A DNA stretch of 64,000 nt from Planctomycetota bacterium (GTDB taxonomy: Bacteria; Planctomycetota; UBA1135; GCA-002686595). The position numbers were made by a program, and so were the translations under genes. The notes beneath the pieces are model-generated. The model was not told the origin of the DNA and ran no database searches. It saw only the letters and a program-made list of their open reading frames with translations. The stretch covers positions 1 through 64,000 of the forward strand of contig JAJDET010000181.1 in assembly GCA_029259655.1 (NCBI GenBank). Reading direction: 5' to 3'. Positions 39,990 to 55,678 of the stretch are shown piece after piece (the stretch's first letter is position 1; every line of letters begins with the position of its first letter).

Positions 39990-41312
39990 ATGATCGTGTG
40001 TCTCGGGCTCATCGCCCTCTCGTCCCTGGCCCAGGAGAGCACTGCGCTCTTCGTGCGGGCCGATCGGATCCTCGTCCAGCCGGGCGAGGAGACCACCGGC
40101 GCGGTCCTCATCGAGAACGGCATCATCGTCGCCGTCGGACCCGGTGTCGCAGCGCCCGAAGGCGCGCGTGAGATCAGCGGAGCCGTGGTCTGTGCCGGCT
40201 ACCTCGACGCGTGGTCGAGCCTCGGTGTGGAGCCCGCCTCCGTCCGCGACGGCAAGACGAGCCCCGCAACGAGCGTGCTCGACGGGCTCGACCTCTTCTC
40301 GAACGATCACCTGCGGCTGGATTCCCTCGAATCCGGCGTGACCGCGCTGCGCATCCAGTCCGGAGTCGAGGCCGAGGTGGGCGGCCTCTCCGCCGTCGTG
40401 CGCAACGATCCGGGCCAGGACGGGCCCGGGGCCGTCCTCATGGAGGACGCCTGCGTCGCCGCGACGATCGGAGTCACCCGCAACGGGAAGACAGTCGACG
40501 TCTTCGACCGGGTGGACGAGGTCGACGACATCGCCGACCTCGTCGAGGCGGGCCTCGCCTATCGGGAGTCGTGGCTCGACTACGAGGAGAAGCTGGCCGA
40601 GTGGGAGAAGGAGATCGCCGAGAAGGAAGAGGAGCTCGAGAAGGACTTCAAGAAGGCGAAGAAGAAGCGCGACGAGGACATCGAGGAGGCGGAGGAGAAG
40701 GGCAAGGAGCACAAGGAGAAGAAGTACAAGGAAGACAAGAAGCCCAAGCGGCCGCGGACCGACACGGACAAGGAGACCATGGCCCGCGTCGGATCGGGCG
40801 AGATCCCGCTCGTGGTCGAGGTCCACCGCTATCCGGAGATCCGCGAGCTCCTGGACCGGACGGAGTCGTTCGACCGTCTGCGGTTGATCCTGGCGGGTGC
40901 CACGGAGGCCAAGCCCTTCGCGGACGAGCTCGCCATGCGCCGCATCCCGGTCATCGTCTGGCCGACCCCGATGGGCGTGACCCGTCCCGACGAGTTCCGC
41001 ATGCACGATCTGGAGCTCGCGGCCACGCTCGACGATGCAGGTGTCCAGGTGCTCTTCGGGAGCGGCGGCCACGGAGCCGCCCGGGACCTGCCCGCTCTGG
41101 CGGCGCTCGCCGTCGGCCACGGTCTCGACCGCACGGCGGCCTTCGAGGCGCTGACCCTGGGTCCCGCGCGGAGCTTCGACGTCGCGCAGCGCATCGGTTC
41201 CGTCGAGCGCGGCAAGGACGCCGACCTGCTCGTCCTCGACGGGGACCCGCTCGACGTCGCGACACGTGCCCGCTTCGTGATCCTGCGCGGCGAGGTCGTC
41301 GTCGAGCGCTGA
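39990..41312 (+). CDS. Exported amidohydrolase-like protein 1 (degenerate)
   Basis: 440 residues from an ATG with GGAG seven bases upstream and a signal (IVCLGLIALSSLAQ). The amidohydrolase frame is clear: N-terminal beta-sandwich ADRILVQPGEETTGAVLIENGIIVAVG and the C-terminal block RIGSVERGKDADLLVLDGDPLDV. The HxH metal site after the first strand is absent (CAGYLDAWSSLG), and the Asp position reads FGSGGHGAAR. About residues 195-260 are a Lys/Glu-rich helical insert (EKLAEWEKEIAEKEEELEKD, then KKAKKKRDED). First gene of a nine-gene block. It is probably a non-catalytic or altered member. Confidence 0.82.
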   Translation: MIVCLGLIALSSLAQESTALFVRADRILVQPGEETTGAVLIENGIIVAVGPGVAAPEGAREISGAVVCAGYLDAWSSLGVEPASVRDGKTSPATSVLDGLDLFSNDHLRLDSLESGVTALRIQSGVEAEVGGLSAVVRNDPGQDGPGAVLMEDACVAATIGVTRNGKTVDVFDRVDEVDDIADLVEAGLAYRESWLDYEEKLAEWEKEIAEKEEELEKDFKKAKKKRDEDIEEAEEKGKEHKEKKYKEDKKPKRPRTDTDKETMARVGSGEIPLVVEVHRYPEIRELLDRTESFDRLRLILAGATEAKPFADELAMRRIPVIVWPTPMGVTRPDEFRMHDLELAATLDDAGVQVLFGSGGHGAARDLPALAALAVGHGLDRTAAFEALTLGPARSFDVAQRIGSVERGKDADLLVLDGDPLDVATRARFVILRGEVVVER

Positions 41313-41329
41313 CCCCGGAGATCCAAGAA

Positions 41330-42421
41330 ATGATCACGACACTCCTCGTCTCGTCGCTCGCGCTCTCCGGCGCCGCGGTCGCGCCCCAGCCGAGCTTCGC
41401 CGTCCGCGCAGCCGCCGTTCACCTCGCCGACGGGACGACCCTCGAAGACGGCGTCCTGTGGGTGGAGAACGGCACGATCCGCGCCGTGGGTCGGGGCGTC
41501 GAGCCGCCCGCCGGCACGCCCTTCATCGAGCACGACGGCGCGCTCTCGGCCGGGATCGTCGCCGCCCACACGCACATGGGGGGTGGCGACGGGCTCCAGG
41601 ACTCGACGCGCGCGTTCCTGCCGGAGGCCCGCGTCCTGCACGCGTTCGAGCCGAAGCACAGCGACTTCGAGCGCGCGCTCGCAGCCGGGATCACGACCGC
41701 CGTCCTCGCGCCGCGCGAGACGAACGTCGCCGGAGGCCGCATCGCGGTCGTGAAGACGTCCGGCGGCACCGTGCTCGAGCGAGACGGACACCTGCACCTC
41801 TCACTGCACACGACGGCGCTCTGGGGCTGGCGCGAGCCCACCTCGTGGCCCGGTGCCCTGGCTCACCTCGAACGCCGTCTGGAAGAGCGCGAGGGACCCT
41901 TCGCCGAGATCGCCTCCGGCGAGCGCTCCGTCATCATCGAGGCCTGGGATCGCCACGAGGTCTCGCGCGCGCTCGAGTTCGCGACGAGCCACGGCCTGCG
42001 AGGGGCGCTGCGCGGCGGACATCGCGCGGGCGAGCTCGCCCGCCGCGTGCGATCGAGCGGGCTCTCGATGATCGTCGGACCCTTCGCGCCCGGCGAGGAT
42101 CGCGAGCACCTGCGCTCGGTCGTCGCGCTCGCCGAAGCGGGCGTCCCGCTCGCCTTCGGTCTCGACGCGCCGGCCAGCGACCCGGAAGCGTTGCGCCTCT
42201 CCGCCGCGCTGTGCGTGCGCGAGGGTCTCGAGCCGCAGACCGCATGGCGCGCCCTCACGAGCACCGCGGCGCAGGTCGCGGGCGTCGCGGACCGCGTCGG
42301 GAGCCTGGAGCGCGGACTCGACGCCGACTTCGTCCTGTGGAGCGGCCCGCCGCTCGAGCTCACGAGCCGCGTCGAGGCGGTCTACATAGGCGGCGAGCTG
42401 GTCTTCGGAGGTGCGCGATGA
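41330..42421 (+). CDS. Exported amidohydrolase-like protein 2
   Basis: 363 residues, signal LLVSSLALSGAAVA, 17 bases after gene 1 with GGAG upstream. It has the imidazolonepropionase-like frame: VHLADGTTLEDGVLWVENGTIRAVG, HTHMGGGDG (His80, His82 kept), GITTAVLAPRETNVAGG, and the C-terminal RVGSLERGLDADFVLWSGPPLEL. The later metal ligands are less clear: candidates are the His of ALRGGHRAGE and the Asp of AFGLDAPASDPE. It may retain one metal. It is the shortest member, lacking the charged insert. Its last base triplet overlaps gene 3 (ATGA). Confidence 0.82.
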   Translation: MITTLLVSSLALSGAAVAPQPSFAVRAAAVHLADGTTLEDGVLWVENGTIRAVGRGVEPPAGTPFIEHDGALSAGIVAAHTHMGGGDGLQDSTRAFLPEARVLHAFEPKHSDFERALAAGITTAVLAPRETNVAGGRIAVVKTSGGTVLERDGHLHLSLHTTALWGWREPTSWPGALAHLERRLEEREGPFAEIASGERSVIIEAWDRHEVSRALEFATSHGLRGALRGGHRAGELARRVRSSGLSMIVGPFAPGEDREHLRSVVALAEAGVPLAFGLDAPASDPEALRLSAALCVREGLEPQTAWRALTSTAAQVAGVADRVGSLERGLDADFVLWSGPPLELTSRVEAVYIGGELVFGGAR

Positions 42422-43629
42422 GAAACGTACTCTCGACCGTCTGCGTCCTCGCGCTCGCGAGCTCCGCGACCGCCCAGGACGACGCCGGGCCCTGGGTCAT
42501 CCGCGCCGATCGCGTCTACACCGCCGCCGGAGAGGTGTTCGAGGGCGGCTTCGTCGCCGTCGCGAACGGGAAGATCGTCGGTGTCGGCCCCGGTGGCGGG
42601 GGGGCGGGCGACGAGCTCGAGGCCGTGTGCGTGACGCCCGGCATGGTCGACCTCGGAGCGCGTGTCGTCACGCACCCCGACGCCGTCGAGCAGTCGACCG
42701 AGGTCGCGGCCTCGATGCGCGTGGCTCACGCGCTCGACCTGTTCGACCCGCGCTGGAAACGCGAGCTCGAGAGCGGCGTGACGACCGTGCTCGCGACACC
42801 GCCCGACAGCAACGTGATCGGCGGTCTCTGCATCGCGGTCAAGACAGGCGGGCTGACGGACGTCGCCTCGCGCACCGTTCGCGCGGACGTCGCCCTGCGT
42901 GGCTCGTTCGGAACCCAGCCCAGTCAGGGCAACCAGAGCTCGTCGGGCACCCCCCAGACCTTCTACGTGCGGCGGCCGACGACACGCATGGGGGTCGAAT
43001 GGACGATCCGCAAGGCGTTCTACGACGCGCTGGCCGGTGCGCAGGATCCCGAGCGCGACTTCGAGGGCGCCGACGTCCTGCGCCGCGTGCTCGACGGCGA
43101 GCTCGTCCTCGGTGCGCAGGCCTGGTCGACCCAGGACATCCGCACGGCGATCTACGTGAAAGAGGAGTTCGGGATCGAGCGGATGTTCGTCGATGCCGCC
43201 GCCGAGGCCTGGAAGGAGCCGGACCTCCTGGTGCGCTCCGGGATGGCCGTGGTCCTGCCGCCCCTCTCGTTCGACGGCCGCGTAGGGCCCGAGAACGCCT
43301 TCTTCTCCTGGCACAGCGCGCGCGAGCTCGACGAGCTCGGCGTGCCGTTCGCCCTCTCCGGACACGGCGCGGCGGACCCGGCCGCGCGCCTCGCCTACCA
43401 GGGCGGACTCGCGATGCGCGGCGGTCTCTCCCTCGAAGCGGCCCTCGCGGCCGTGACCCTCGCGCCGGCGCGAATGATCGGTATCGACGATCGCGTCGGC
43501 AGCCTCGAGGTCGGCAAGGACGCCGATCTCCTCCTCTGGAGCGGAACACCCTTTCAACCGACGTCGCGCATCATCGGCGTGATGCTCGACGGTCGGCTCG
43601 TCGTCGATCGGCGTGAAGCGAGCGAGTGA
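42418..43629 (+). CDS. Exported amidohydrolase-like protein 3 (degenerate)
   Basis: 403 residues with a signal (VLSTVCVLALASSATAQ). The start overlaps gene 2 by four bases. The family frame is IRADRVYTAAGEVFEGGFVAVANGKIVGVG, GVTTVLATPPDSNVIGG and RVGSLEVGKDADLLLWSGTPFQPTSRI. After the first beta-alpha unit the metal motif is replaced (MVDLGARVVTHP), and the Asp position reads ALSGHGAADPA. Most catalytic ligands therefore look lost. A Gln/Ser-rich loop (TQPSQGNQSSSGTPQ) is inserted after the third strand. Likely a structural partner of the intact members. Confidence 0.8.
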   Translation: MRNVLSTVCVLALASSATAQDDAGPWVIRADRVYTAAGEVFEGGFVAVANGKIVGVGPGGGGAGDELEAVCVTPGMVDLGARVVTHPDAVEQSTEVAASMRVAHALDLFDPRWKRELESGVTTVLATPPDSNVIGGLCIAVKTGGLTDVASRTVRADVALRGSFGTQPSQGNQSSSGTPQTFYVRRPTTRMGVEWTIRKAFYDALAGAQDPERDFEGADVLRRVLDGELVLGAQAWSTQDIRTAIYVKEEFGIERMFVDAAAEAWKEPDLLVRSGMAVVLPPLSFDGRVGPENAFFSWHSARELDELGVPFALSGHGAADPAARLAYQGGLAMRGGLSLEAALAAVTLAPARMIGIDDRVGSLEVGKDADLLLWSGTPFQPTSRIIGVMLDGRLVVDRREASE

Positions 43630-43642
43630 CAACGATCCCGAA

Positions 43643-45028
43643 ATGAACATGAAGAAGCACAGCCTGATCGCCGCTCTCGCGACGATCCTCCTCGCGCCCT
43701 CGGTGCCCGCCCAGAGCGGGAACCTCGTCATCGAAGCCGGCCGCATCATCACGCAGGCCGACGGCGAGATCGCCGACGGCGTGATCGTGATCGAGAACGG
43801 CCGGATCGCGGCCATCGGCCCCGCCGACTCGACCGAGCGCCCGTGGGACGCCCCGGTGGTCGGCGGTGAAGACCTGGTCGCTTTCCCCGGGTTCGTCGAG
43901 GCGCACACGTTCCGCGGCATGGACCGCCCGAACGAGTCGATCGACGTCGCGGCCTTCCTCGACATCCGAGACTCGATCGATCCCGTGAGCTTCTTCTTCG
44001 AGAACTCGGTCAGGAACGGCATCACCACGCTCGGTGTCCAGCAAGGCAACAGCTGTGTCGTCGGCGGCCAGGGAATGGTCGTGCGCCCCGTCGGGATGAC
44101 CGTCGAACAGATGATGGTGCGCCAGCCGTTCGGCCTGAAGCTCTCCGCTGCGCCGAAGAGCGGGAAGTCCCGCACGACGCAGGCGCAGGCGCTGCGCAAG
44201 GCGTTCGCAGACCTCCGCGAGTACCTCGAGACGCTCGTGCAGGACGAGCGCGACGAGAGCGGCAAGGCGCGACGCGAGGCGCTCTTCCAGGGTCGCGACG
44301 TCGACGAGGAGGAGAACCAGGGCCGCGCCATGACGGGGCTCGCGTGGACGGTCGACGGGCTCGACATCGTCCCGCGCGGAGGCGTCGACCAGAAAGAACG
44401 CCCGCTGCTGCAGCTCGTCGAAGGCCGCTGGGACGCGTTCTTCTACTGCGGGGCTCCGATGGACGTGCACCTCGCGCTCGAGGTCGCCCGCGACAACGGC
44501 TTCCTGCACAGGACCACGCTCGTCCTCGACGACTCGTGCTGGAAGGCCGCCGAGATCATCGCGGAGGCCGGCGTGTCGGTCGTGCTCGACAACGACATGA
44601 TCCACATCGAGCGTGATCCGCGCACCGGTGACGAGATCGAGACCTTCGTCCCCGCCGTCTTCCAGGAGCGGGGAGTGCGCTTCGCGCTCTCCTCGAGCAA
44701 CGACACCAACCGCTCGCTCTGGTACCAGGCCGCCTTCGCGACAGGACAGGGCCTCGACCGCCGCGACGCCCTCGACGCGGTGACCGTCGTACCGGCCGAG
44801 ATCCTCGGTCTGGGTGACCGTGTCGGCAGGTTGGAGGCAGGCTACGACGGCAACGTCGTGCTCTTCTCCGGCGACCCGCTGGACGTCTCCTCGTGGGTCG
44901 AGCACGTCATCATCGAGGGCGTTCACGTCTACGACCGGAGCGAGGACGTGCGCATTCAACACCTTCACGAGGGCGTGGATCCGCGCAAGTCGCGCGGCAC
45001 GTCTGCGGCCCTTCGCTCGGAGCGCTGA
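43643..45028 (+). CDS. Exported amidohydrolase-like protein 4 (partly degenerate)
   Basis: 461 residues with signal LIAALATILLAPSVPAQ, 13 bases after gene 3; ATGs at 43643 and 43649 are both possible. Frame motifs: VIEAGRIITQADGEIADGVIVIENGRIAAIG, GITTLGVQQGNSCVVGGQG and RVGRLEAGYDGNVVLFSGDPLDV. The metal site is HTF (EAHTFRGMD), keeping only the first His. FALSSSNDTNRS keeps an Asp. A charged helix (ALRKAFADLREYLETLVQDE) occupies the same place as the Lys/Glu inserts of genes 1, 5 and 8. Weak or altered catalysis is possible. Confidence 0.8.
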   Translation: MNMKKHSLIAALATILLAPSVPAQSGNLVIEAGRIITQADGEIADGVIVIENGRIAAIGPADSTERPWDAPVVGGEDLVAFPGFVEAHTFRGMDRPNESIDVAAFLDIRDSIDPVSFFFENSVRNGITTLGVQQGNSCVVGGQGMVVRPVGMTVEQMMVRQPFGLKLSAAPKSGKSRTTQAQALRKAFADLREYLETLVQDERDESGKARREALFQGRDVDEEENQGRAMTGLAWTVDGLDIVPRGGVDQKERPLLQLVEGRWDAFFYCGAPMDVHLALEVARDNGFLHRTTLVLDDSCWKAAEIIAEAGVSVVLDNDMIHIERDPRTGDEIETFVPAVFQERGVRFALSSSNDTNRSLWYQAAFATGQGLDRRDALDAVTVVPAEILGLGDRVGRLEAGYDGNVVLFSGDPLDVSSWVEHVIIEGVHVYDRSEDVRIQHLHEGVDPRKSRGTSAALRSER

Positions 45029-45029
45029 G

Positions 45030-47828
45030 ATGATCCGGACTGCGATCTGCCTGGCGATCTTCGCTGCGTCCCCGGTCCTCGCCGGCGATGTCGTCGTTCG
45101 AGCGGGCACGATCCACTCGATGGATCCCGCGCTCGGAACGATCCACGGCGGTGCCCTGCTCGTCCGCGACGGGCGCGTGGTCGAGATCGGCGAGAGCGTG
45201 GCCGTCCCGCCGGGCGCGCAGGTCGTCGACTACGGCCCCGACGCCGTGCTCGTCCCCGGCTTCGTCGCCGCGACCACGAGCTACGCGATGGGGCGTCCGT
45301 CACCCCGGACCGCGGCGCCCTCACTGTCCGCGATCGACGGGTTCAGCTTCTACGGACGCTACGACACGGCGCTCTCCGCCGGCGTGACGTCCGCGTACAT
45401 CGCGCCCGCACGCGGTCGGCTCATCGCCGGTCAGGGCGCCGTCGTGAAGCTCGGGGGTGAAGACCCGGCACGTCGTGTGCTCGCCGCGCCTTCCGTCCTG
45501 CACGGTTCGATCGCTGCCGACGCGCGGTCGGTGCCGGGGTTCTGGGAGCCGCCGGTTCCGCCCTCCGTCGACGTCGGGCTCGGGTACGCCAAGCCCCAGC
45601 TCCCGCGCACCGCCATGGGCGCAATCGTCGCGCTCGGAGAGCTCCTCGACGGGCTCGGCGAGGTCTCCGAGGAGTACGGCGACGCGACGCGCGATCTCGC
45701 GGAGCTCGTCCAGCGCGGGACCCCCTGGCGCATGCGCGCCGGGACCGAGGGCGAGATCCGCGCCCTGCTCGAGTTCGCCGCACAACGCGGGCTCGCGCTC
45801 GTGGTGGAGGGCTCCGACGTCACGGCTCTCCTCGCTGACGAGCTTGCCGCGGCGGGGGTCTCGGTCGTGTACGAGGTGCCTTTCCGACCCAACGTCCGCG
45901 GCATCGACCGCGGAAAGTCACGTGACTCGCGCTGGCCCGATTTTTCCGCTCCCGCCGCGCTCGATGCCGCCGGCGTGCGCTTCGCGATCGCCCACGACGG
46001 GTCGGCCCGCGACCTCCTCTTCGCCGCGCGCCTCGCCATGCGCGGCGGTCTGACTCCCGAGGCGGCGCTCGCCGCGATCACGATCGCTCCGGCCGAGATC
46101 CTCGGCGCCGCGGCGCGCGTGGGGAGCCTCGCACCGGGCAAGGACGCCGACCTGGCCGTCTTCCACGGCGAGCCCCTCGAGGGCGGTGTCGCCGCGGCGA
46201 CCTGGCTCGACGGAGAGCTCGCCTGGGAAGAGAAGACGGGAGACACGGCCGTCGTGCTCGAGGTGGACGAGCTCCACGTCGGCGACGGTCAGGTGCTGCG
46301 CCCCGGCGCGCTCCTGATGAAGAACGGACGGCTCGTCGAGGTCGGCCGCCGCGTCTCGCGCCCGGCCGGCGCGAAGGTGGTCCGCGGCTCGACGGCCATG
46401 CCCGGAATGATCGACGCGCTCGGACACCTGGGACTCGAGGGCTCGAAGAAGAGCGCGCGCACCGACGACGCGCTCGCGAAGATCATGGGCCCCGGTGACC
46501 ACGTCGACCGGCGCGTCGCCCTGGCCGGCGTCACGACGGTCGTGCTCTCGCCGCGCGGAGGCTCCGACTCCGGTATTCCGATGAGCGCCTACAAGCCCGC
46601 CGCGAGCGGAGAGCGCCAGGTCGTGGCCGATCCCGCGACGCTGCGTGTGCAGTGGACGCAGCCCAACCGACTGAAGTCGGGAAAGAGCGTGCGCGACACG
46701 CTCGAGAAGGTCGCGAAGTACCGCGAGAAGTGGGCCGAGTACGAGCAGAAGCTGGCCGAGTGGATGGCCGCTCCGCCGAAGGCCGAGAAGGAGGAGGACG
46801 AAGACGAGGAAGGAGAGGACGAGGAGGCGGAGGAGGAGCCCGAGGACGACAAGAAGAAGAAAAAGAAGAAGAAGAAGGACGACGACGAAGAGGAAGAAGC
46901 CGACCCGGTGACCGGCGTCTGGGAGGCGACGCTCGTCCGCCCGCCCATGACCGATGCGGTTCCGATCCGGATCCAGCTCGTGAACACGGACGGTGCCGTC
47001 CAGGGCTCCATTCGCTGCAGCGCGCTCTCCGAGGACCTGATCGAGATCGAGGGGCGCTTCGACGACGGCGCGCTGCGCGCCAAGGGGCTCGGAACCCAGG
47101 GCTGGGTCACGCTCGCGGGCGAGCCGAAGAAGGGCGAGCTCGAGGCGACCCTCACGGTCGCCGGTACCGAGCTCCAGTTCGAGGCCGAGCGCACGCGGCC
47201 CGACGTGCCGCGCGCCAGCCGCCCCAAGCGCCACTCCGCGACCGAAGAGGAACAGGAGAAGGGCAAGCCCCAGCCGCCGAAACGCGACGGGAAGCTCGAG
47301 CCGTTCCTGCGCGCGATCGACGGTGAAGGATCGATCGTCGTCGCAGTCGACCGCGAGGACGAGATCCTCGCCTGCGTCGACGCCTTCGCCGAAGCCGGCA
47401 TCGCGCCGGTGCTCTACGGAGCCGACGGCATCCGGTACGTCGCCGACCAGGTCGCCGACCGGATCGCGGGTGTGATGCTGCGACACCGGATCGTGGAGCA
47501 CGAGTACGAGCAGGGGCTCGTCTTCCGCAACCGCTACGCCGAGCTCCAGGGCGCCGGCATCCGCATCGCGTTCCACTCGATGGCCGAGGAAGGAGCCGCC
47601 GACCTGCCGGCGATGGCGAGCTACGCCGTCGCGAACGGGCTCTCGGGCGACGGTGCGCTGCGAGCGCTCACCACGGACGTCGCCGACATGTTCGGAATCG
47701 CCGACCGGGTCGGACGACTGCAAACGGGCCTCGACGCGGACGTGCTCCTGCTCGACGGTCCCCCGCTCGACCCCGCGACCCGCGTGCTGCGCGCATGGGT
47801 CAACGGGAAGGAGATCCTGCGCCGATGA
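45030..47828 (+). CDS. Exported double amidohydrolase-like fusion 5
   Basis: 932 residues, signal AICLAIFAASPVLAG. Two complete amidohydrolase frames lie in tandem: module A (to about 400, ending RVGSLAPGKDADLAVFHGEP) and module B (from about 410, ELHVGDGQVLRPGALLMKNGRL, ending RVGRLQTGLDADVLLLDGPPLD). Neither keeps HxH (VAATTSYAMG and MIDALGHLG). Module B carries an acidic-then-Lys tract (about 580-625, nine consecutive Lys) followed by an extra beta-rich domain of roughly 100 residues (GVWEATLVRPPMTDAVPIRI to AGTELQFEAERTR). It starts one base after the gene 4 stop and ends overlapping gene 6. Probably a scaffold-like pseudo-enzyme. Confidence 0.82.
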   Translation: MIRTAICLAIFAASPVLAGDVVVRAGTIHSMDPALGTIHGGALLVRDGRVVEIGESVAVPPGAQVVDYGPDAVLVPGFVAATTSYAMGRPSPRTAAPSLSAIDGFSFYGRYDTALSAGVTSAYIAPARGRLIAGQGAVVKLGGEDPARRVLAAPSVLHGSIAADARSVPGFWEPPVPPSVDVGLGYAKPQLPRTAMGAIVALGELLDGLGEVSEEYGDATRDLAELVQRGTPWRMRAGTEGEIRALLEFAAQRGLALVVEGSDVTALLADELAAAGVSVVYEVPFRPNVRGIDRGKSRDSRWPDFSAPAALDAAGVRFAIAHDGSARDLLFAARLAMRGGLTPEAALAAITIAPAEILGAAARVGSLAPGKDADLAVFHGEPLEGGVAAATWLDGELAWEEKTGDTAVVLEVDELHVGDGQVLRPGALLMKNGRLVEVGRRVSRPAGAKVVRGSTAMPGMIDALGHLGLEGSKKSARTDDALAKIMGPGDHVDRRVALAGVTTVVLSPRGGSDSGIPMSAYKPAASGERQVVADPATLRVQWTQPNRLKSGKSVRDTLEKVAKYREKWAEYEQKLAEWMAAPPKAEKEEDEDEEGEDEEAEEEPEDDKKKKKKKKKDDDEEEEADPVTGVWEATLVRPPMTDAVPIRIQLVNTDGAVQGSIRCSALSEDLIEIEGRFDDGALRAKGLGTQGWVTLAGEPKKGELEATLTVAGTELQFEAERTRPDVPRASRPKRHSATEEEQEKGKPQPPKRDGKLEPFLRAIDGEGSIVVAVDREDEILACVDAFAEAGIAPVLYGADGIRYVADQVADRIAGVMLRHRIVEHEYEQGLVFRNRYAELQGAGIRIAFHSMAEEGAADLPAMASYAVANGLSGDGALRALTTDVADMFGIADRVGRLQTGLDADVLLLDGPPLDPATRVLRAWVNGKEILRR

Positions 47829-49102
47829 TCCTCGCACTCACACTCGCTGTCCTCGCTTCCGACACGCCCGCCGCGCCGGGACAGGTCGGCGGATCCGGGC
47901 TCGCGATCCGGAGCGCCAAGATCCTGACCTGCGCCCGCGAAGGAGCCGGCGTCGTGGACCGCGGCGTCCTCCTCGTGCGCGACGGAAAGATCGAGGCGAT
48001 CGAGCGGGCTCGCGACCTCGAGATCCCGGCGGACTACGAGCTCGTCGACGTCGGCGACAAGTGGCTCATGCCGGGCATCATCGACCTGCACTGCCACGCC
48101 GGCGCCATCGAGTCGCTCTTCATCAACGACCTGAACGACGTCGTCTACCTGACGAACCCGGGTCTGCGAGCATGGACGGGGACGAAGCCGGGCAACCCGC
48201 GCCTGCTGACGGGGCTCCAGGCCGGCGTCACGACAGTGCTCGTGATCCCGGGCTCGGGAAGCAGCATCGGCGGGTGGGGCGTGCTCCTCAAGACCGGACA
48301 CGACCGCTACGAGGAGATGCTGCTCCGCAACCCCGGCTCGATGAAGATCGCGCAGTGGGGCAACCCGGAGAGCTGGGGACCGGGGGTCGCGAAGACCTTC
48401 GAGACCTACGCGATCCGCGACGCGTTCACGCGCGGGCTCGCCTATGCCCGGCGCTGGCACGCGTTCGAAGAGGGCAGCGGCGAGGAGCCCGAGTTCGACC
48501 CGCAGTGGGAGATCTTCCGCCACCTCCTCGAGAAGGACACGCAGGCCTCCGTCCACACGCAGGTCTACCAGGTCGTGCTGAAGACCATCACGCAGATCAA
48601 GGGCGAGTTCGGCGTCGACGTGTACATCGATCACGGGTCGATCGGCGCGTGGCGCGCCGGCGGCATCGCACAGGAGATGGGCGTGCCCGCGATCCTCGGC
48701 CCGCGCAACGCCGACACTCCGGCGCGCGGCTTCATCAACTGGGGACAGCTCGACACCGAGGGCTTCAAGGGGATCGCGGCGGGCTACCAGGAGATGGGGC
48801 TCGAGCTCATCGGCTTCAACACCGACTCACCGGTCATTCCCCAGCAGGAGCTTCCGGTCCAGGCCACGATCGCCGCCCGCCTCGGGTTCGACGACAGCGA
48901 GATGCAGGCCGTGCGCGGGCTCACGATCGTGCCCGCGATCGCGGCCGGGATCGACGACCGCGTCGGGAGCCTCGAGGTCGGCAAGGACGCCGACGTGCTG
49001 GTCATCAGCGGCCATCCGGCCGACCCGCGCTCGTGGGTGCAGCGCGTGTGGCAGGACGGTGAGGTCGTGTACGACTCCGAGACCGAGAGGCGTCGCTGGT
49101 GA
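47825..49102 (+). CDS. Exported amidohydrolase 6 (complete metal site)
   Basis: 425 residues with a weak signal (ILALTLAVLASDTPAAPG). This member keeps the whole binuclear-metal set in sequence: DLHCH (His89, His91), SVHTQVYQ (His), YIDHGSIG (His) and GFNTDSP (Asp). These are flanked by the normal frame AKILTCAREGAGVVDRGVLLVRDGKIEAI and RVGSLEVGKDADVLVISGHPAD. It is most like the imidazolonepropionase/prolidase-type amidohydrolases, which cleave C-N bonds in small amides or dipeptides. The substrate cannot be told. ATGA overlap with gene 5 and GTGA overlap with gene 7. Confidence 0.88.
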   Translation: MILALTLAVLASDTPAAPGQVGGSGLAIRSAKILTCAREGAGVVDRGVLLVRDGKIEAIERARDLEIPADYELVDVGDKWLMPGIIDLHCHAGAIESLFINDLNDVVYLTNPGLRAWTGTKPGNPRLLTGLQAGVTTVLVIPGSGSSIGGWGVLLKTGHDRYEEMLLRNPGSMKIAQWGNPESWGPGVAKTFETYAIRDAFTRGLAYARRWHAFEEGSGEEPEFDPQWEIFRHLLEKDTQASVHTQVYQVVLKTITQIKGEFGVDVYIDHGSIGAWRAGGIAQEMGVPAILGPRNADTPARGFINWGQLDTEGFKGIAAGYQEMGLELIGFNTDSPVIPQQELPVQATIAARLGFDDSEMQAVRGLTIVPAIAAGIDDRVGSLEVGKDADVLVISGHPADPRSWVQRVWQDGEVVYDSETERRRW

Positions 49103-50346
49103 GAGCCGTCCTCGCACTGCTCGCCACGTTCGCCTGCATCGGCTGCCGGTCGGCTGCGGCCGAACCGGCGCGAGCGCCCGCGCCGATTCCCGCCCTCGCG
49201 GCGGAGGAGACCGGCCTCGTCGTCCTCGTCGGACGCGTCATCACGGCCGGCGATACGGATCTGGTGCACGCGCCGGGCATGCTGGCGATCCGCGACGGGA
49301 AGATCACCTACGTCGGGCCGCCGGTCGACGTGCCCGAGGGCTACGAGCTCCTCGAGTCCGACCGCGCGTGGGCCGTGCCGGGTATGGTCGACCTTCACAC
49401 GCACGTCCACACCGGTACCTGGGGCGACATCAACGAGGGCATGCACCACGTCGCGCCCGAGTTCTCCGTGGCGCCGACCATGGTGCCCGCGAACGATCTC
49501 CTGCGCCTCGCCTGCGCGTCGGGAGTCACCACGCTGCTCGGTATCCCCGGCAGCTCGACGAGCATGGGCGGGTTCGGCGTGCTCTACAAGGCGAAGACGA
49601 GCGGCGGGTTCGAGGACGTCGTGCTCGCGAACCCCGGCGGGCTCAAGGTCGCGCAGACGCACAACCCCGACCGCAACAACAACCTCGTCCTGCACAGCTG
49701 GGCCGGGCTCGGCTGGGTCCTCGAGGACATCAACGACAAGGCCGTCGCCGCGCTCGAGCAGGACCGCTTCGATCCCCAGCTCGAGAACCTGAAGAAGGTC
49801 CACGCCGGCGAGATCCCCGTCCTGATCCACTGCGCAGGCGGCGAGGGCGTCGCGGCGACCGCGCGCATGTGGCGCGTCACCTACGACACACAGAGCGTCG
49901 TCTCCCACGGGAGCTTCGACGGCTACAAGGTGGCCGACTGGCTGGCCGAGCTCGGGATGCCGGTCAACCACGGGCCGCGCCTGTTCGATTACTTCTCGTC
50001 GCGCACGGGCCGCGTCGAACCCTCGGCTCACATCTTCGAGTCGGCGGGGACGCCCAACTTCTCGCTGAACACCGACTCGCAGATCATCCCCGAGCACGAG
50101 TTCTTCCTGCAGGGCGCGATGGCCGCGCGGCAGGGGATCGACGGCTACCAGGCGCTGCGCGCCCTGACCATTCACCCCGCGAAGGCTTTCGGCATCGCCG
50201 ATCGCGTGGGGAGCCTCGAGACCGGAAAGGACGCCGATATCGTCCTGTGGACGGGCGACCCGCTCGATCCCCGCAGTCGCGTCGAGCTCGTGCTGATCGA
50301 CGGCGAGGTGCAATACGACCGCAAGGAGGACGGACAGTGGTCCTGA
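49099..50346 (+). CDS. Exported amidohydrolase 7 (lipoprotein, complete metal site)
   Basis: 415 residues from GTG. The leader ends in ATFACIGC, a lipobox. The metal ligands are complete: DLHTH (His100, His102), VLIHCAGG (His), VVSHGSFDG (His) and SLNTDSQ (Asp), with RVGSLETGKDADIVLWTGDPLDP at the C-terminus. It is closely similar to gene 6 (GVTTLLGIPGSSTSMGGFGVLYK against GVTTVLVIPGSGSSIGGWGVLLK), so the pair probably arose by duplication. As the lipid-anchored, intact member it may hold the other secreted members at the membrane. Confidence 0.88.
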   Translation: MRAVLALLATFACIGCRSAAAEPARAPAPIPALAAEETGLVVLVGRVITAGDTDLVHAPGMLAIRDGKITYVGPPVDVPEGYELLESDRAWAVPGMVDLHTHVHTGTWGDINEGMHHVAPEFSVAPTMVPANDLLRLACASGVTTLLGIPGSSTSMGGFGVLYKAKTSGGFEDVVLANPGGLKVAQTHNPDRNNNLVLHSWAGLGWVLEDINDKAVAALEQDRFDPQLENLKKVHAGEIPVLIHCAGGEGVAATARMWRVTYDTQSVVSHGSFDGYKVADWLAELGMPVNHGPRLFDYFSSRTGRVEPSAHIFESAGTPNFSLNTDSQIIPEHEFFLQGAMAARQGIDGYQALRALTIHPAKAFGIADRVGSLETGKDADIVLWTGDPLDPRSRVELVLIDGEVQYDRKEDGQWS

Positions 50347-50357
50347 CCCCGAAACCG

Positions 50358-51638
50358 ATGAAGCGCATTCTCATGACGACCGCGGCCGTGGCCGCGCTGG
50401 CGACGACGACTCTCGCGGCTCCCGGCGGCGAGCTCGTCGCGATCCGCGTCCGTGCCGCCGAGACGATCGGCCAGGGCCGCATCGAGCACGCCGTGATCCT
50501 GATCGAGAACGGCAAGATCGCGACGATCGGCCAGGACTTGCCGATCGACCGCGGGATCCGGGTCATCGACGCCAGGGACCTGACCGTGATGCCGGGCCTC
50601 GTGAACTGCTGGTCGCGAGCCGGGATGGACTCGCAGGGCGGGAGCGGATCGCAGCCCCAGGAGCTCGCTTCTGCCGAGCTCTATCCGCGCGACAAGAGCT
50701 ACGAGGAGCTGCTCGAGTTCGGCGTCACCACGCTCGGGCTGTATCCCTCGGGCCAGGGCATTCCGGGACAGGCCGTGGCCGTGCGCCCGCACGGCGCGAC
50801 CGTCGGCGAGATGATCGTGCGCGACAACGCCTACCTCCGTGTTCAGCTCGTCTCGGATTCGGGCTCGAAGAAGATGCTCCGCGACGGGTTCGAGAAGGTC
50901 GACAAGTACGACGAGAAGGAAGCGAAGCGTCTCGAGAAGTGGGAGAAGGACCAGGAGAAGAAGAAGAAGAAGAAAAAAAAGAAGAAGAAGGACGAGGACG
51001 AGGAAGACGAGGACAAGGAAGAGGAGAAGGAGAACGGGGAAGAGGAAGACGACGGCGTCTACGTCCCCGAGGAGCCCGATGCCGACGTCGTCCCCTTCAT
51101 GCAGCTGCGCTCCGGCGTGCTCACGGCGCTGATCGAGATCCGGAACTCGGCCGCCTACCTCCATCTCCTCGACGCGATCGACGAGGAGGAGTTCGGCTGG
51201 AACGTGCGCGTTCCGCTGCGCAACGACATCGACCTGTACGAGGTCGCCGAGAAGATCGGCGAGCGCGAGCTGCGCCTCGTTCTGGAGCCGCGCGTCACGC
51301 TGTTCCCCGGGACCCGTCGCGAACGCAACCTGCCCCGCGAGCTCGTCGCTGCGGGAGCGAAGGTCGCCTTCGTCCCGCGCTCGGACTCGATCCGCTCACA
51401 CGAGACCTGGCGCGTCGACGTCGGGGAGCTGGTCGCGGCGGGCTTCGACCGCCAGCTAGCCTTGCGCGCGATGACGCTCGAGCCGGCCGAGGTGCTCGGG
51501 CTGGCCGACCGCGTCGGCAGCCTCGAGCCCGAGCGGGACGCGAACCTCCTGTTCCTCGACGGCGATCCGCTCGAGGCCTCGACACGCGTCGTGGCCGTGA
51601 TGCTCGAAGGCCGCCTCGTCCACGGAGAGGTGGATTGA
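50358..51638 (+). CDS. Exported amidohydrolase-like protein 8 with poly-Lys/acidic insert
   Basis: 426 residues, signal LMTTAAVAALATTTLAA. Frame motifs: VRAAETIGQGRIEHAVILIENGKIATIG, GVTTLGLYPSGQGIPGQ and RVGSLEPERDANLLFLDGDPLEA. The metal site is gone (GLVNCWSRAGMD). At about residues 190-235 a basic helix runs into eleven consecutive Lys and then an acidic tract (DEDEEDEDKEEEKENGEEEDD). The coding strand there is 40 bases of pure purine (50953-50992) and holds an A AAA AAG heptamer in frame. Start 11 bases after gene 7. Probably non-catalytic. Confidence 0.82.
   Translation: MKRILMTTAAVAALATTTLAAPGGELVAIRVRAAETIGQGRIEHAVILIENGKIATIGQDLPIDRGIRVIDARDLTVMPGLVNCWSRAGMDSQGGSGSQPQELASAELYPRDKSYEELLEFGVTTLGLYPSGQGIPGQAVAVRPHGATVGEMIVRDNAYLRVQLVSDSGSKKMLRDGFEKVDKYDEKEAKRLEKWEKDQEKKKKKKKKKKKDEDEEDEDKEEEKENGEEEDDGVYVPEEPDADVVPFMQLRSGVLTALIEIRNSAAYLHLLDAIDEEEFGWNVRVPLRNDIDLYEVAEKIGERELRLVLEPRVTLFPGTRRERNLPRELVAAGAKVAFVPRSDSIRSHETWRVDVGELVAAGFDRQLALRAMTLEPAEVLGLADRVGSLEPERDANLLFLDGDPLEASTRVVAVMLEGRLVHGEVD
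50973..50981 (+). promoter_or_regulatory. In-frame A AAA AAG slippery sequence
   Basis: Eight A followed by G; read in the gene frame the last seven bases are A|AAA|AAG, the same heptamer that drives -1 frameshifting in E. coli dnaX. An AGGAG that could act as a stimulatory Shine-Dalgarno lies at 50953-50957. The -1 frame is open from 50939 through to the end of the next gene (53185). In GC-rich DNA such openness is common, so function is unproven. Confidence 0.4.
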
Positions 51639-51640
51639 TC

Positions 51641-53185
51641 ATGCTGCGAATCACACATCTGTTCCTCGCCGTCCTGTTCGGCGCCGCGCCCGCGCTCTGG
51701 GCCGCTCCCGTTTCCCCTGTCGCCTTCGACGACGACGAGGAAGAAGAGGAAGCGGAGGAGGACGAGGACGAGGACGAGAAGGACCACTGGATCGCCGTCG
51801 TCGGCGGCGACGTCCACACCGGGACGGGCGCCGTACTGCGCGGCGCAACCGTCGTCGCCAAGAACGGCGTCATCGAGGAGATCGGGTGGGACCCCTGGTT
51901 CCCCGAGGAGGCCGAGATCGTGGACGCGGCGGGGTACTTCGTCTATCCGGGCCTGATTGCGATGGAGGCGGCGCCGGGCATCGTCCAGGGCGGCGGTGCC
52001 GTCGAGGAGGAGGACACGCACGGGCCGCACGGGCTCGATACGCAGGAGATCGCGAACCACCTCGCGCGCTTCGCGACCGAACCGCAGCCCACCCAGGCGG
52101 CGATTGAGGACTCCTACGACCCCTTCGGGCAGAACCTCATCCTGGCGCTGGCGACGGGCATCACCACGACGGTCAACGGCGACGCTGCGATCAAGCTGAA
52201 GCGGCGCGAGATCGACGACATCGTGATGAGCGAGGGGAGCCTCCAGTCGTTCACGTGGAGCCGGAGGAACCCGGCCGGCAAGCGGGCGCTGCGCGAGAAG
52301 TTCGAGCGGGCCTCCGAGTACACGCGCGAGCTGCGCGAGTTCGAGCAGACCAAGAGCAAGGACGACGAGGAGAAGGGCCCGAGCGACAAGGGCGTGGACA
52401 AGCAGGTGCTCGCGGTCCTGGGCGGCCAGACGCGCGCCAAGTTCACGGCAAACGACCGCACGGACCTGCTCTCCCTCGCGCGCTTCGCGCAGGAGTTCGA
52501 CTTCCGCCCGGTCATCGAGGGCTGCCAGGAAGGCTGGACCGTGGCCGACGAGCTCGGCCGCGCCGGCGCGACGGCGATCCTGACACCGCGTGACACGAAG
52601 CGCGCGCGAGAGGAGCTCCAGCTCGAGACGGGCTCGACGATCGAGAACGCCGCGATCCTCTACCGCCACGGTGTGCAGATCGCCGTGGTCCCCGGTTCGC
52701 CCGACGTCAACCTGGGCGGGATCATGGGACGCGACCTCCTGGCGCTACCGATCGAGGTCGGTTTCGCGGTCCGTGGAGGACTTCCGGAGGAAGCCGGCCT
52801 CGCGTCGGTCACGACCGTGCCCGCGCGCCTGCTCGGCATCTCGCACCGCGTGGGAACTCTCGAAGAGGGCAAGGACTGCGACCTGATCGTCACCGACGGC
52901 GACTGGATGCACTACGAGACGTTCGTGCAGTACACCGTCGTCGCGGGCAAGCTCGCGTACGACAAGCAGGAAGAGGTCTTCTTCTCGCACATCCGGCCGC
53001 GCCCCGTGGTCGAGGTGGAGGAGACCGAAGACGAGACGGAGCCCGCGGAGACGCCCGATGAGGAGACCGAAGAGGTCGACGACGACGACGACGACGACGA
53101 GGGCGAGAACGACGACGAAGCCGCAGGGGACGACGAGGAAGGCGCGGATGAGGGAGAGGACGAGGAGTCCGAGGACGAGGGCTGA
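51641..53185 (+). CDS. Exported amidohydrolase-like protein 9 with acidic ends
   Basis: 514 residues, signal LFLAVLFGAAPALWAAP. The mature N-terminus is immediately acidic (FDDDEEEEEAEEDEDEDEKD), and the last about 55 residues are almost all Asp/Glu (EVDDDDDDDEGENDDE). Between them lies an amidohydrolase frame, VGGDVHTGTGAVLRGATVVAKNGVIEEIG to RVGTLEEGKDCDLIVTDGDW. The metal site is absent (GLIAMEAAPGI), and the Asp position reads VVPGSPDVNLGG. It starts two bases after gene 8. The acidic ends could pair with the Lys tracts of genes 5 and 8 or bind cations. Last gene of the block. Confidence 0.82.
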   Translation: MLRITHLFLAVLFGAAPALWAAPVSPVAFDDDEEEEEAEEDEDEDEKDHWIAVVGGDVHTGTGAVLRGATVVAKNGVIEEIGWDPWFPEEAEIVDAAGYFVYPGLIAMEAAPGIVQGGGAVEEEDTHGPHGLDTQEIANHLARFATEPQPTQAAIEDSYDPFGQNLILALATGITTTVNGDAAIKLKRREIDDIVMSEGSLQSFTWSRRNPAGKRALREKFERASEYTRELREFEQTKSKDDEEKGPSDKGVDKQVLAVLGGQTRAKFTANDRTDLLSLARFAQEFDFRPVIEGCQEGWTVADELGRAGATAILTPRDTKRAREELQLETGSTIENAAILYRHGVQIAVVPGSPDVNLGGIMGRDLLALPIEVGFAVRGGLPEEAGLASVTTVPARLLGISHRVGTLEEGKDCDLIVTDGDWMHYETFVQYTVVAGKLAYDKQEEVFFSHIRPRPVVEVEETEDETEPAETPDEETEEVDDDDDDDEGENDDEAAGDDEEGADEGEDEESEDEG

Positions 53186-53241: not shown

Positions 53242-53775
53242 ATGACCGATCCCCGCCGGGACCTCGCCGACGAGCTCCTGGTCCTCGCTTGCCTGGAGGG
53301 CCGGACGGACGCGTTCCGCGAGCTCTTCGAGCGCTGGAACGAGCCGCTCTGGCGGCACGCCTACCGGCTGCTCGGGCGAGACGACGGCGCGTCGGACGCG
53401 CTCCAGGACGCCTGGATCGCGATCGCGTCGGGCATCGGCCGGCTGAGAGACCCCGGGAGCTTCCGGCGCTGGGCGTACAAGATCGTCACGCGGCGCGCCG
53501 CGGACTGGCTCGGCGCGAACAGGAACAGCGCCGAGAGCGCGCTCGACGATGAGATCGAGGCCGACACCGAGCCGGAGAGCGCGGTCGAGGCCCTGCGCCT
53601 CGCGCTTCGCCGGCTCCCGCGCGACCGTCGCGTGCTCCTGACGCTCCGCTACCTCGACGGATTCGAGCTGTCCGAGGTCGCAGAGATCCTGGGCGTCCCC
53701 GAAGGGACCGTGAAGTCGCGACTGCACCACGCACGCAACGAGCTGCGCGCGATTGTCGAAAGGATGGAACGATGA
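53242..53775 (+). CDS. ECF sigma-70 factor
   Basis: 177 residues. Region 2 spans about 22-85 (LFERWNEPLWRHAYRLLGRDDGASDALQDAWIAIASGIGRL, with promoter-melting region FRRWAYKIVTRRAADWL). Region 4 is at about 118-172 (LRRLPRDRRVLLTLRYLDGFELSEVAEILGVPEGTVKSRLHHAR). It directs RNA polymerase to a specific regulon. It follows the amidohydrolase block by 56 bases and overlaps the membrane-protein gene by four bases (ATGA), the usual sigma/anti-sigma arrangement. Whether it controls the amidohydrolase block is an inference from position. Confidence 0.92.
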   Translation: MTDPRRDLADELLVLACLEGRTDAFRELFERWNEPLWRHAYRLLGRDDGASDALQDAWIAIASGIGRLRDPGSFRRWAYKIVTRRAADWLGANRNSAESALDDEIEADTEPESAVEALRLALRRLPRDRRVLLTLRYLDGFELSEVAEILGVPEGTVKSRLHHARNELRAIVERMER

Positions 53776-54613: not shown

Positions 54614-55678
54614 ATGATCCTCCGCGACCTCTTGCGCGTCCTGGGCTCCAGCCACCGGGACGGGCGGAACCTCACTGAAGACGAGGCCTTCCGGGCCTTC
54701 CAGATGATGTTCGCGGGGACGGAGAGCGAGATCCAGGTGGGTGCGTTCCTGATCGCGCTGCGCTGGAAGGGCGTCACGGTCGAGGAGCTCACCGGCTTCG
54801 CGCGCGCAGCGCGCGAGCGAGCCACGATCCCCTGCGTCGGGATGGCGGGACTCGTCTGCGTCTGTCCTCCGCACGACGGCCTCGAGGAGAAACCGCCGCT
54901 CGAAGTCGCGTCGGGACTGATCGCCGCGGCGGCAGGTGCGCGGGTCATGATCATCACCGACCGCTGCGTGCCGCCGAAGCGCGGGCTCACCGCCGCGAGC
55001 GTGCTCGAGCACCTCGGCGCCGGTCTCACTTGGGATCCGCGCGAGGTCGAGGAGTGGGTCCTGCGCACGCGCTTCGGCGCGATCGCCGCGCCGGGCATGA
55101 TCCCGAGCATCCTCGGTCTGCGTCGCGTCCGCGGCGACGTCGGTGTACGCACACCGCTGGCGACGGTCGAGAAGCTGATCGCACCCTGCACGGCGGCGAT
55201 GGTCGTCGGAGCGCAGACCGGCCCCGTGCTCGGAACCGCGGTCGAGGTGATCCAGGCGCTCGGTCATCCGCACGGCATCGCGGTGCAGGGCATCGGCGGC
55301 GGCGTCGTGCCGACGATCACGAAGCGCTCGCGCGCGATCGAGCTCGAGGGCCCCCACATCGCGCCGCTCACGATCGACCCGGAGGACTTCGGTCTCGACG
55401 GCGTGCGCGACGAGGAGCTCCCGATGTACATGCCCGCCGAGGATTCGCAGGGCACGGGCGACAACCCGGCGCTCGTGCACGACGCCGGCGAGATCACGCG
55501 CAAGATCCTCGCGGGCGAGGACGGCCCCGCGCGCAACGCGGCCCTGCTCGGCTCGTCGCTCATGCTCAAGGCCGCGGGCCGCTGCATGACGATCGCCGAG
55601 GGCGTCGACGCCTCGATCAACGCGCTCGATTCCGGCGGCGCGTCCGAGGTGCTGGAGCAGCTCCGCTCGCTGACGTGA
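54614..55678 (+). CDS. Anthranilate phosphoribosyltransferase-like (TrpD2/YbiB type)
   Basis: 354 residues from ATG. The helical N-domain (LTEDEAFRAFQMMFAGTESEIQVGAFLIALRWKGVTVEELTGFARA) and the Rossmann-like core match the nucleoside phosphorylase-III/TrpD fold. However the TrpD glycine loop GTGGDG is CPPHDG, and the HGNR-SSxSG block reads TDRCVPPKRGLTAASVLEHLG. It therefore belongs with TrpD-like proteins such as YbiB, some of which bind nucleic acid, and not with the tryptophan enzyme. The lack of a Shine-Dalgarno sequence is notable. Its stop overlaps the GTG of the next gene. Confidence 0.8.
   Translation: MILRDLLRVLGSSHRDGRNLTEDEAFRAFQMMFAGTESEIQVGAFLIALRWKGVTVEELTGFARAARERATIPCVGMAGLVCVCPPHDGLEEKPPLEVASGLIAAAAGARVMIITDRCVPPKRGLTAASVLEHLGAGLTWDPREVEEWVLRTRFGAIAAPGMIPSILGLRRVRGDVGVRTPLATVEKLIAPCTAAMVVGAQTGPVLGTAVEVIQALGHPHGIAVQGIGGGVVPTITKRSRAIELEGPHIAPLTIDPEDFGLDGVRDEELPMYMPAEDSQGTGDNPALVHDAGEITRKILAGEDGPARNAALLGSSLMLKAAGRCMTIAEGVDASINALDSGGASEVLEQLRSLT

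Follow-up and report, generated by a model that had tools for sequence, protein, structure and literature searches.

A fixed-order gene block in Planctomycetota in which predicted amidohydrolases are accompanied by eight kinds of degenerate paralogue

The ochratoxinase subtype of binuclear site in the amidohydrolase superfamily has a bridging carboxylated lysine, and the ochratoxinase of A. niger is a homo-octamer whose closest structural relatives cleave dipeptides (PMC11342369). The genes analyzed here share both the superfamily and the bridging-lysine binuclear subtype with ochratoxinase and with the Cc2672/Sgx9260 dipeptidase/carboxypeptidase group, but each of those enzymes comes from one gene and has all of its subunits intact. 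The best sequence match in the PDB for two of our genes, g7 (E 2.4e-35) and g5 (E 1.6e-21), is the Thermotoga maritima amidohydrolase 3OOQ (TM0814), for which we know of no function. In the alignment it carries the HxH/K/H/H/D set of g6 and g7, but 3OOQ is a structural-genomics entry for a single intact protein of one kind.

The locus occupies positions 39990–53185 of a 64,000-nt stretch of planctomycetote DNA (the window), and consists of nine plus-strand genes, g1 to g9, with ten amidohydrolase modules, two of them in g5, exactly as the original prediction had placed and counted them. The g2/g3, g5/g6 and g6/g7 junctions are 4-base overlaps and the other junctions are gaps of 1 to about 20 bases. 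It had been claimed that the products are made in fixed proportion, which does not follow from such close packing. Every gene passes the Pfam cut-offs for PF01979 and PF07969 through its C-terminal part, and pairwise identity among the ten modules is 22–34%. The VENGxIxxVG-type and RVGSLExGKDADxxxxxGDPL signatures, earlier singled out as a common frame, are indeed present, but both are ordinary features of the superfamily, from its N-terminal sandwich and its C-terminal strand.

The six metal-ligand columns (H,H,K,H,H,D: HxH, Lys, His, His, Asp) were read after alignment on the family profile. Within the window the full binuclear set HxH/Lys/His/His/Asp is found exclusively in the first and second intact modules, g6 (47825–49102) and g7 (49099–50346), which both read H,H,K,H,H,D and are the predicted catalytic subunits; each other module keeps at most three of the six. 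The Lys column of g6 and g7 corresponds to the bridging lysine of the ochratoxinase subtype, and this residue may be carboxylated here as well. Among the degenerate modules upstream, g1 (position 1, 39990–41312) reads W,S,A,E,A,H and has a charged Lys/Glu-rich insert and an export-type N-terminus. The shortest module, g2 (position 2, 41330–42421; 363 aa), reads H,H,H,E,R,D: HxH and Asp are present, and the bridging Lys and both later His are gone. The columns of g3 (position 3, 42418–43629) are G,R,R,Q,D,H, of which R,R,Q,D recurs across the window's family, and those of g4 (position 4, 43649–45028, with an alternative ATG at 43643) are H,F,K,Y,V,N, one His and the Lys being kept. The two fused degenerate modules of g5 (45030–47828) are 5a (45033–46238; T,S,H,R,E,D) and 5b (46239–47819; L,H,R,A,Y,E), the latter with a charged insert and an inserted all-beta domain. 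Downstream of the intact pair, g8 (position 8, 50358–51638) reads W,R,R,E,R,S and has a Lys/Glu-rich insert, and g9 (position 9, 51641–53185) reads E,A,Q,T,E,G and has an acidic N-terminal stretch and a long acidic C-terminal tail. Because only g6 and g7 have the full ligand set, the block, as judged from these residues, is a combination of two putative enzymes and eight pseudoenzyme modules, and not the ten amidohydrolases that the original prediction implied. The Xaa-Pro dipeptidase model NF051886 gives the window's proteins a best score of 69.5 bits, far under the NCBIfam cut-off of 500.

With g7 as the query, each of the 41 genomes in a first set gave matches, and we read the regions of about 20 kb surrounding the best of them. 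The analysis covers 50 blocks, chosen because they contain a fused gene for 5a=5b and seven or more modules. In these blocks the complete ligand set is present in 92 of 100 modules at the intact position, and the four His and the Lys in all 100, whereas it is present in none of the 396 modules at the eight other positions, where a mean of 0.10–1.88 of the six ligands is kept. At positions 1, 2, 5a, 5b and 8 the former ligand columns vary freely from genome to genome. Each degenerate position has conserved residues of its own, in part at columns that once held ligands: position 3 has R,R,Q,D in the window's family, and position 4 has one His (kept in 42/50) and the Lys (45/50).

All nine positions are present in 47 of the 50 blocks, the window included, and every one of these complete blocks has the order 1-2-3-4-5a=5b-[1 to 4 intact]-8-9. 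The number of intact modules per complete block is one in 23, two in 10, three in seven and four in seven. More than one intact gene was seen only within the window's taxonomic order, and complete blocks outside it have exactly one intact and eight degenerate modules; the multiple intact genes look like a later expansion. The same layout was found in further stretches from across the phylum. Since the 50 blocks had been selected for the fused gene and a minimum number of modules, we re-tested the order free of that selection, running position-specific profiles from the first set on 15 new stretches. Eight of these show the full series of nine in that order, with position 1 broken in two in one case; two contigs from a single genome complement each other, and the stretches cut by a contig end agree with the order. 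In one family, f26 (two genomes, four stretches), positions 1-5b and intact-8-9 lie at two separate loci. That the block is conserved as a unit with a fixed module order is thus borne out both by the 47 complete blocks and by the new stretches read with profiles.

Counted by hand from family codes, the block, whether complete, split or cut by a contig end, is present in about 22 families, and it is absent from other families of the phylum, some of them with complete genomes. Modules 5a and 5b are fused in all, and 1=2, 2=3, 1=2=3, 4=5a or 8=9 fusions are found in some families. As markers for the two ends we used position 4 (E up to 1e-30) and position 9 (E up to 1e-26), with cut-offs placed by eye so as to separate genomes with the block from those without it. 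By hand count the two markers occur together in 49 of one sample of 199 genomes of the phylum and are discordant in five (position 4 only in three, position 9 only in two); in most of these five the assembly is fragmented or the block lies at the end of a contig. This near all-or-none retention of both ends, together with the presence of eight degenerate positions in every complete block, is the main indirect evidence that the modules work together. A binning artefact is ruled out, as the block lies on single contigs in many independent genomes. One genome carries two complete nine-position blocks, on contigs C63 and C339. No relative was found on viral contigs, and the plasmid collection gave distant single genes or pairs only.

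The origin of the modules was analyzed in a FastTree phylogeny of 518 modules, including 12 unlinked pairs of an intact and a degenerate gene. Positions 3, 4, 5a, 5b, 8 and 9 and the intact class each form an exact clade with a support of 0.98–1.0, and positions 1 and 2 are near-clades that collect 46 of 48 and 49 of 50 rows, respectively. Because the intact label came from the ligands, the intact clade is an independent check of that label. An IQ-TREE check of 104 rows under a mixture model recovered seven of the nine classes with starred support, positions 1 and 2 being disturbed by long branches; deep branching among the positions has weak support. Each module is most closely related to its counterparts at that position in other families, so the modules were already distinct before the sampled families split. 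The same position-specific clades reject recent tandem duplication, and with it the serial duplication of the original prediction, if that is taken as a recent or local event. The intact module averages 42.3% identity between genomes, and two degenerate positions are equally conserved, position 4 with 41.6% and position 9 with 41.5%. The other degenerate positions average 30–37%, and different positions within one genome 24%.

Three degenerate modules (5a, 5b and g9) have the amidohydrolase fold in AlphaFold2 models, with a mean pLDDT of 89.2 and pTM of 0.70 for g5 and a mean pLDDT of 81.4 and pTM of 0.75 for g9. The best fold match of both models is again 3OOQ (E 2.6e-25 for g5 and 2.9e-26 for g9). 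The all-beta domain inserted in 5b comprises about 95 residues (g5 residues about 629–723; 46914–47198) and has no Pfam match; a DPxTGxW motif that is conserved in orthologues adjoins it. An alignment of a natural 8=9 fusion protein with separate position-8 and position-9 proteins was dropped, as the position-8 rows fell on the position-9 half.

All nine window genes start with a hydrophobic N-terminal segment. Across the 50 blocks, with hydrophobicity as the sole basis for the export call, such a segment is found in 71–96% of the genes at each gene-start position, compared with 3% of internal control stretches. The products are probably located outside the cytoplasm, to judge by their N-termini. 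Of the earlier claim that each gene has a signal or a lipobox, the first half stands and the second does not hold in general: g7 has a borderline motif, and among relatives a minority carry lipobox-like ones.

We found no non-amidohydrolase neighbour common to all 50 blocks. The commonest is a phosphoribosyltransferase-family gene, TrpD2/YbiB-like by eye, located at 54614–55678 in the window and downstream of the block in 21 of 50 cases. A sigma-70-like sigma factor gene (ECF-type by eye) at 53242–53775, 57 bases after g9, is not a conserved neighbour. Elsewhere in the window's genome, on contig C174, lies an unlinked two-gene pair in which an intact module (HHKHHD) accompanies a degenerate one (HVATDY), and the same kind of pair occurs in many relatives. 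Contig C176 of that genome has a three-module arrangement, also seen in three other stretches, in which an HHKHQD module is found with degenerate, partly fused modules (the last column is unread in the C176 copy). Intact-plus-degenerate pairs also occur in two Sphingomonadales, and single genes in Bacillota and Actinomycetota. One of the pairs, on a plasmid of Qipengyuania citrea, adjoins genes for a peptide MFS transporter and an FKBP-type prolyl isomerase, and the peptide transporter gene beside this Sphingomonadales pair is a weak hint at peptide substrates. Taken together, these sequences suggest a graded habit of this amidohydrolase group, in which an intact member is accompanied by at least one dead paralogue.

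Joint function of the block's products is the best reading of these observations. Broken copies that keep their order in about 20 families must have some role, most likely as parts of a joint enzyme. Specifically, we lean toward a hetero-oligomeric amidohydrolase that is exported and is probably a peptidase; of its paralogous subunits one kind would be catalytic and eight would not. The catalytic kind would be g6 and g7 here, and one gene in most families, with a binuclear HxH/Lys/His/His/Asp site that may hydrolyse amides, the likeliest substrates being peptides or N-acyl amino acids. The products of g1–g4, 5a, 5b, g8 and g9, having lost the metal site, would give the catalytic subunit its shape, its position or its regulation, with no catalysis of their own, and the block as a whole would represent a homo-oligomeric amidohydrolase after its subunits specialised. 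Behind this proposal stand gene content, degeneracy, order, divergence, joint retention, hydrophobic N-termini and the fold of three modules, all of which are observed, and from which we infer the contacts, stoichiometry, substrate and location. The fusions of neighbouring modules, the unlinked intact-plus-degenerate pairs and the homo-octamer of ochratoxinase also speak for it. Counting against it are the split loci of f26, the variation from one to four intact genes, and the pTM of g5, which leaves the packing of its two halves unfixed; joint retention, moreover, might be the mark of a pathway and not of a complex. A single transcript is in any case unnecessary, because f26 has the two parts of the block at different loci. 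A stronger reading has slightly less than even odds: that nine distinct paralogous barrels, only one kind of them catalytic, form an obligate hetero-oligomer that is exported and widespread and that evolved from a homo-oligomer as eight of the nine kinds became conserved pseudoenzymes, the whole being encoded in one colinear operon.

The chief rival to a shared complex is that the degenerate modules are free exported binding proteins, which would use the old pocket for substrate capture, sensing or delivery beside the intact enzyme. The residues conserved separately at each position, some at former ligand columns, fit this explanation, as do the export-type N-termini and the two loci of f26. 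We nevertheless consider it unlikely, because all eight modules are kept together almost without exception, and because neighbours are fused in several families, which is not required of free binding proteins. A little less likely again is a multi-step exported pathway in which some degenerate modules are enzymes with new chemistry, using other ligands or a mononuclear or metal-free site. In its favour, position-specific conservation is strong, g2 still has HxH and Asp, and position 4 mostly retains its His and Lys. However, the freely varying ligand columns of positions 1, 2, 5a, 5b and 8 are unlike those of a working site, and no other enzyme gene is common to the blocks.

Two simpler explanations fare much worse. 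A single fold in tandem, with an intact gene in one to four copies within the window's taxonomic order, might reflect ordinary local family expansion, i.e., recent tandem copies with no joint role that drift after losing catalysis. This is very improbable given the fixed order and position-specific clades across about 20 families, the open frames that have been kept, and the two positions conserved equally to the intact gene. Least probable is that the block encodes ten active amidohydrolases, each with its own substrate: all nine genes do pass the Pfam cut-offs, but the metal ligands are missing from eight modules in every genome examined. The three outcomes that the original prediction had named as speaking against it were not observed either: the genes are not scattered in relatives, apart from the two loci in one family; the modules are related by phylogeny, position by position; and not every module has its own intact site.

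If the complex exists, the shared enzyme that we favour would let the question of how homomers become heteromers be studied in bacteria, where the same genomes also hold the smaller pairs, and it would explain what many genes annotated simply as 'amidohydrolase family protein' are for. The block is also an extreme and widely replicated natural case of paralogues that lose catalysis and yet stay, in order, over deep divergence. Searches for the block, for TM0814/3OOQ and for amidohydrolase pseudoenzymes in the open-licence literature, which leaves most subscription journals outside, turned up no description, and to our knowledge eight conserved pseudoenzyme modules per intact one, in a colinear block across much of a phylum, have not been described.

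A parallel in composition is provided by the two-gene pairs of C174, other Planctomycetota and the two Sphingomonadales, which likewise place an intact HHKHHD gene beside a degenerate paralogue. They have two modules, however, compared with nine to twelve in the block, and the block modules form clades separate from both pair A and pair B in the 518-module tree. Amidohydrolase-fold pseudoenzymes that act as structural partners include the pseudo-dihydroorotase partner of Pseudomonas aspartate transcarbamoylase and the CRMPs, but these are partners of another enzyme or of themselves, whereas the block has eight kinds accompanying an intact paralogue. Rings of paralogues, some catalytic and some not, are found in cyanobacterial ClpP/ClpR and in the beta ring of the eukaryotic proteasome. 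The likeness is one of working principle: a homomer whose duplicate subunits have specialised, some of them free of catalysis. These rings differ from the block in that their fold is unrelated, they have fewer non-catalytic kinds per catalytic kind, and their assembly is known, whereas that of the block is a prediction. The fold, the idea of non-catalytic paralogous subunits and the smaller intact-plus-degenerate pair are thus already known.
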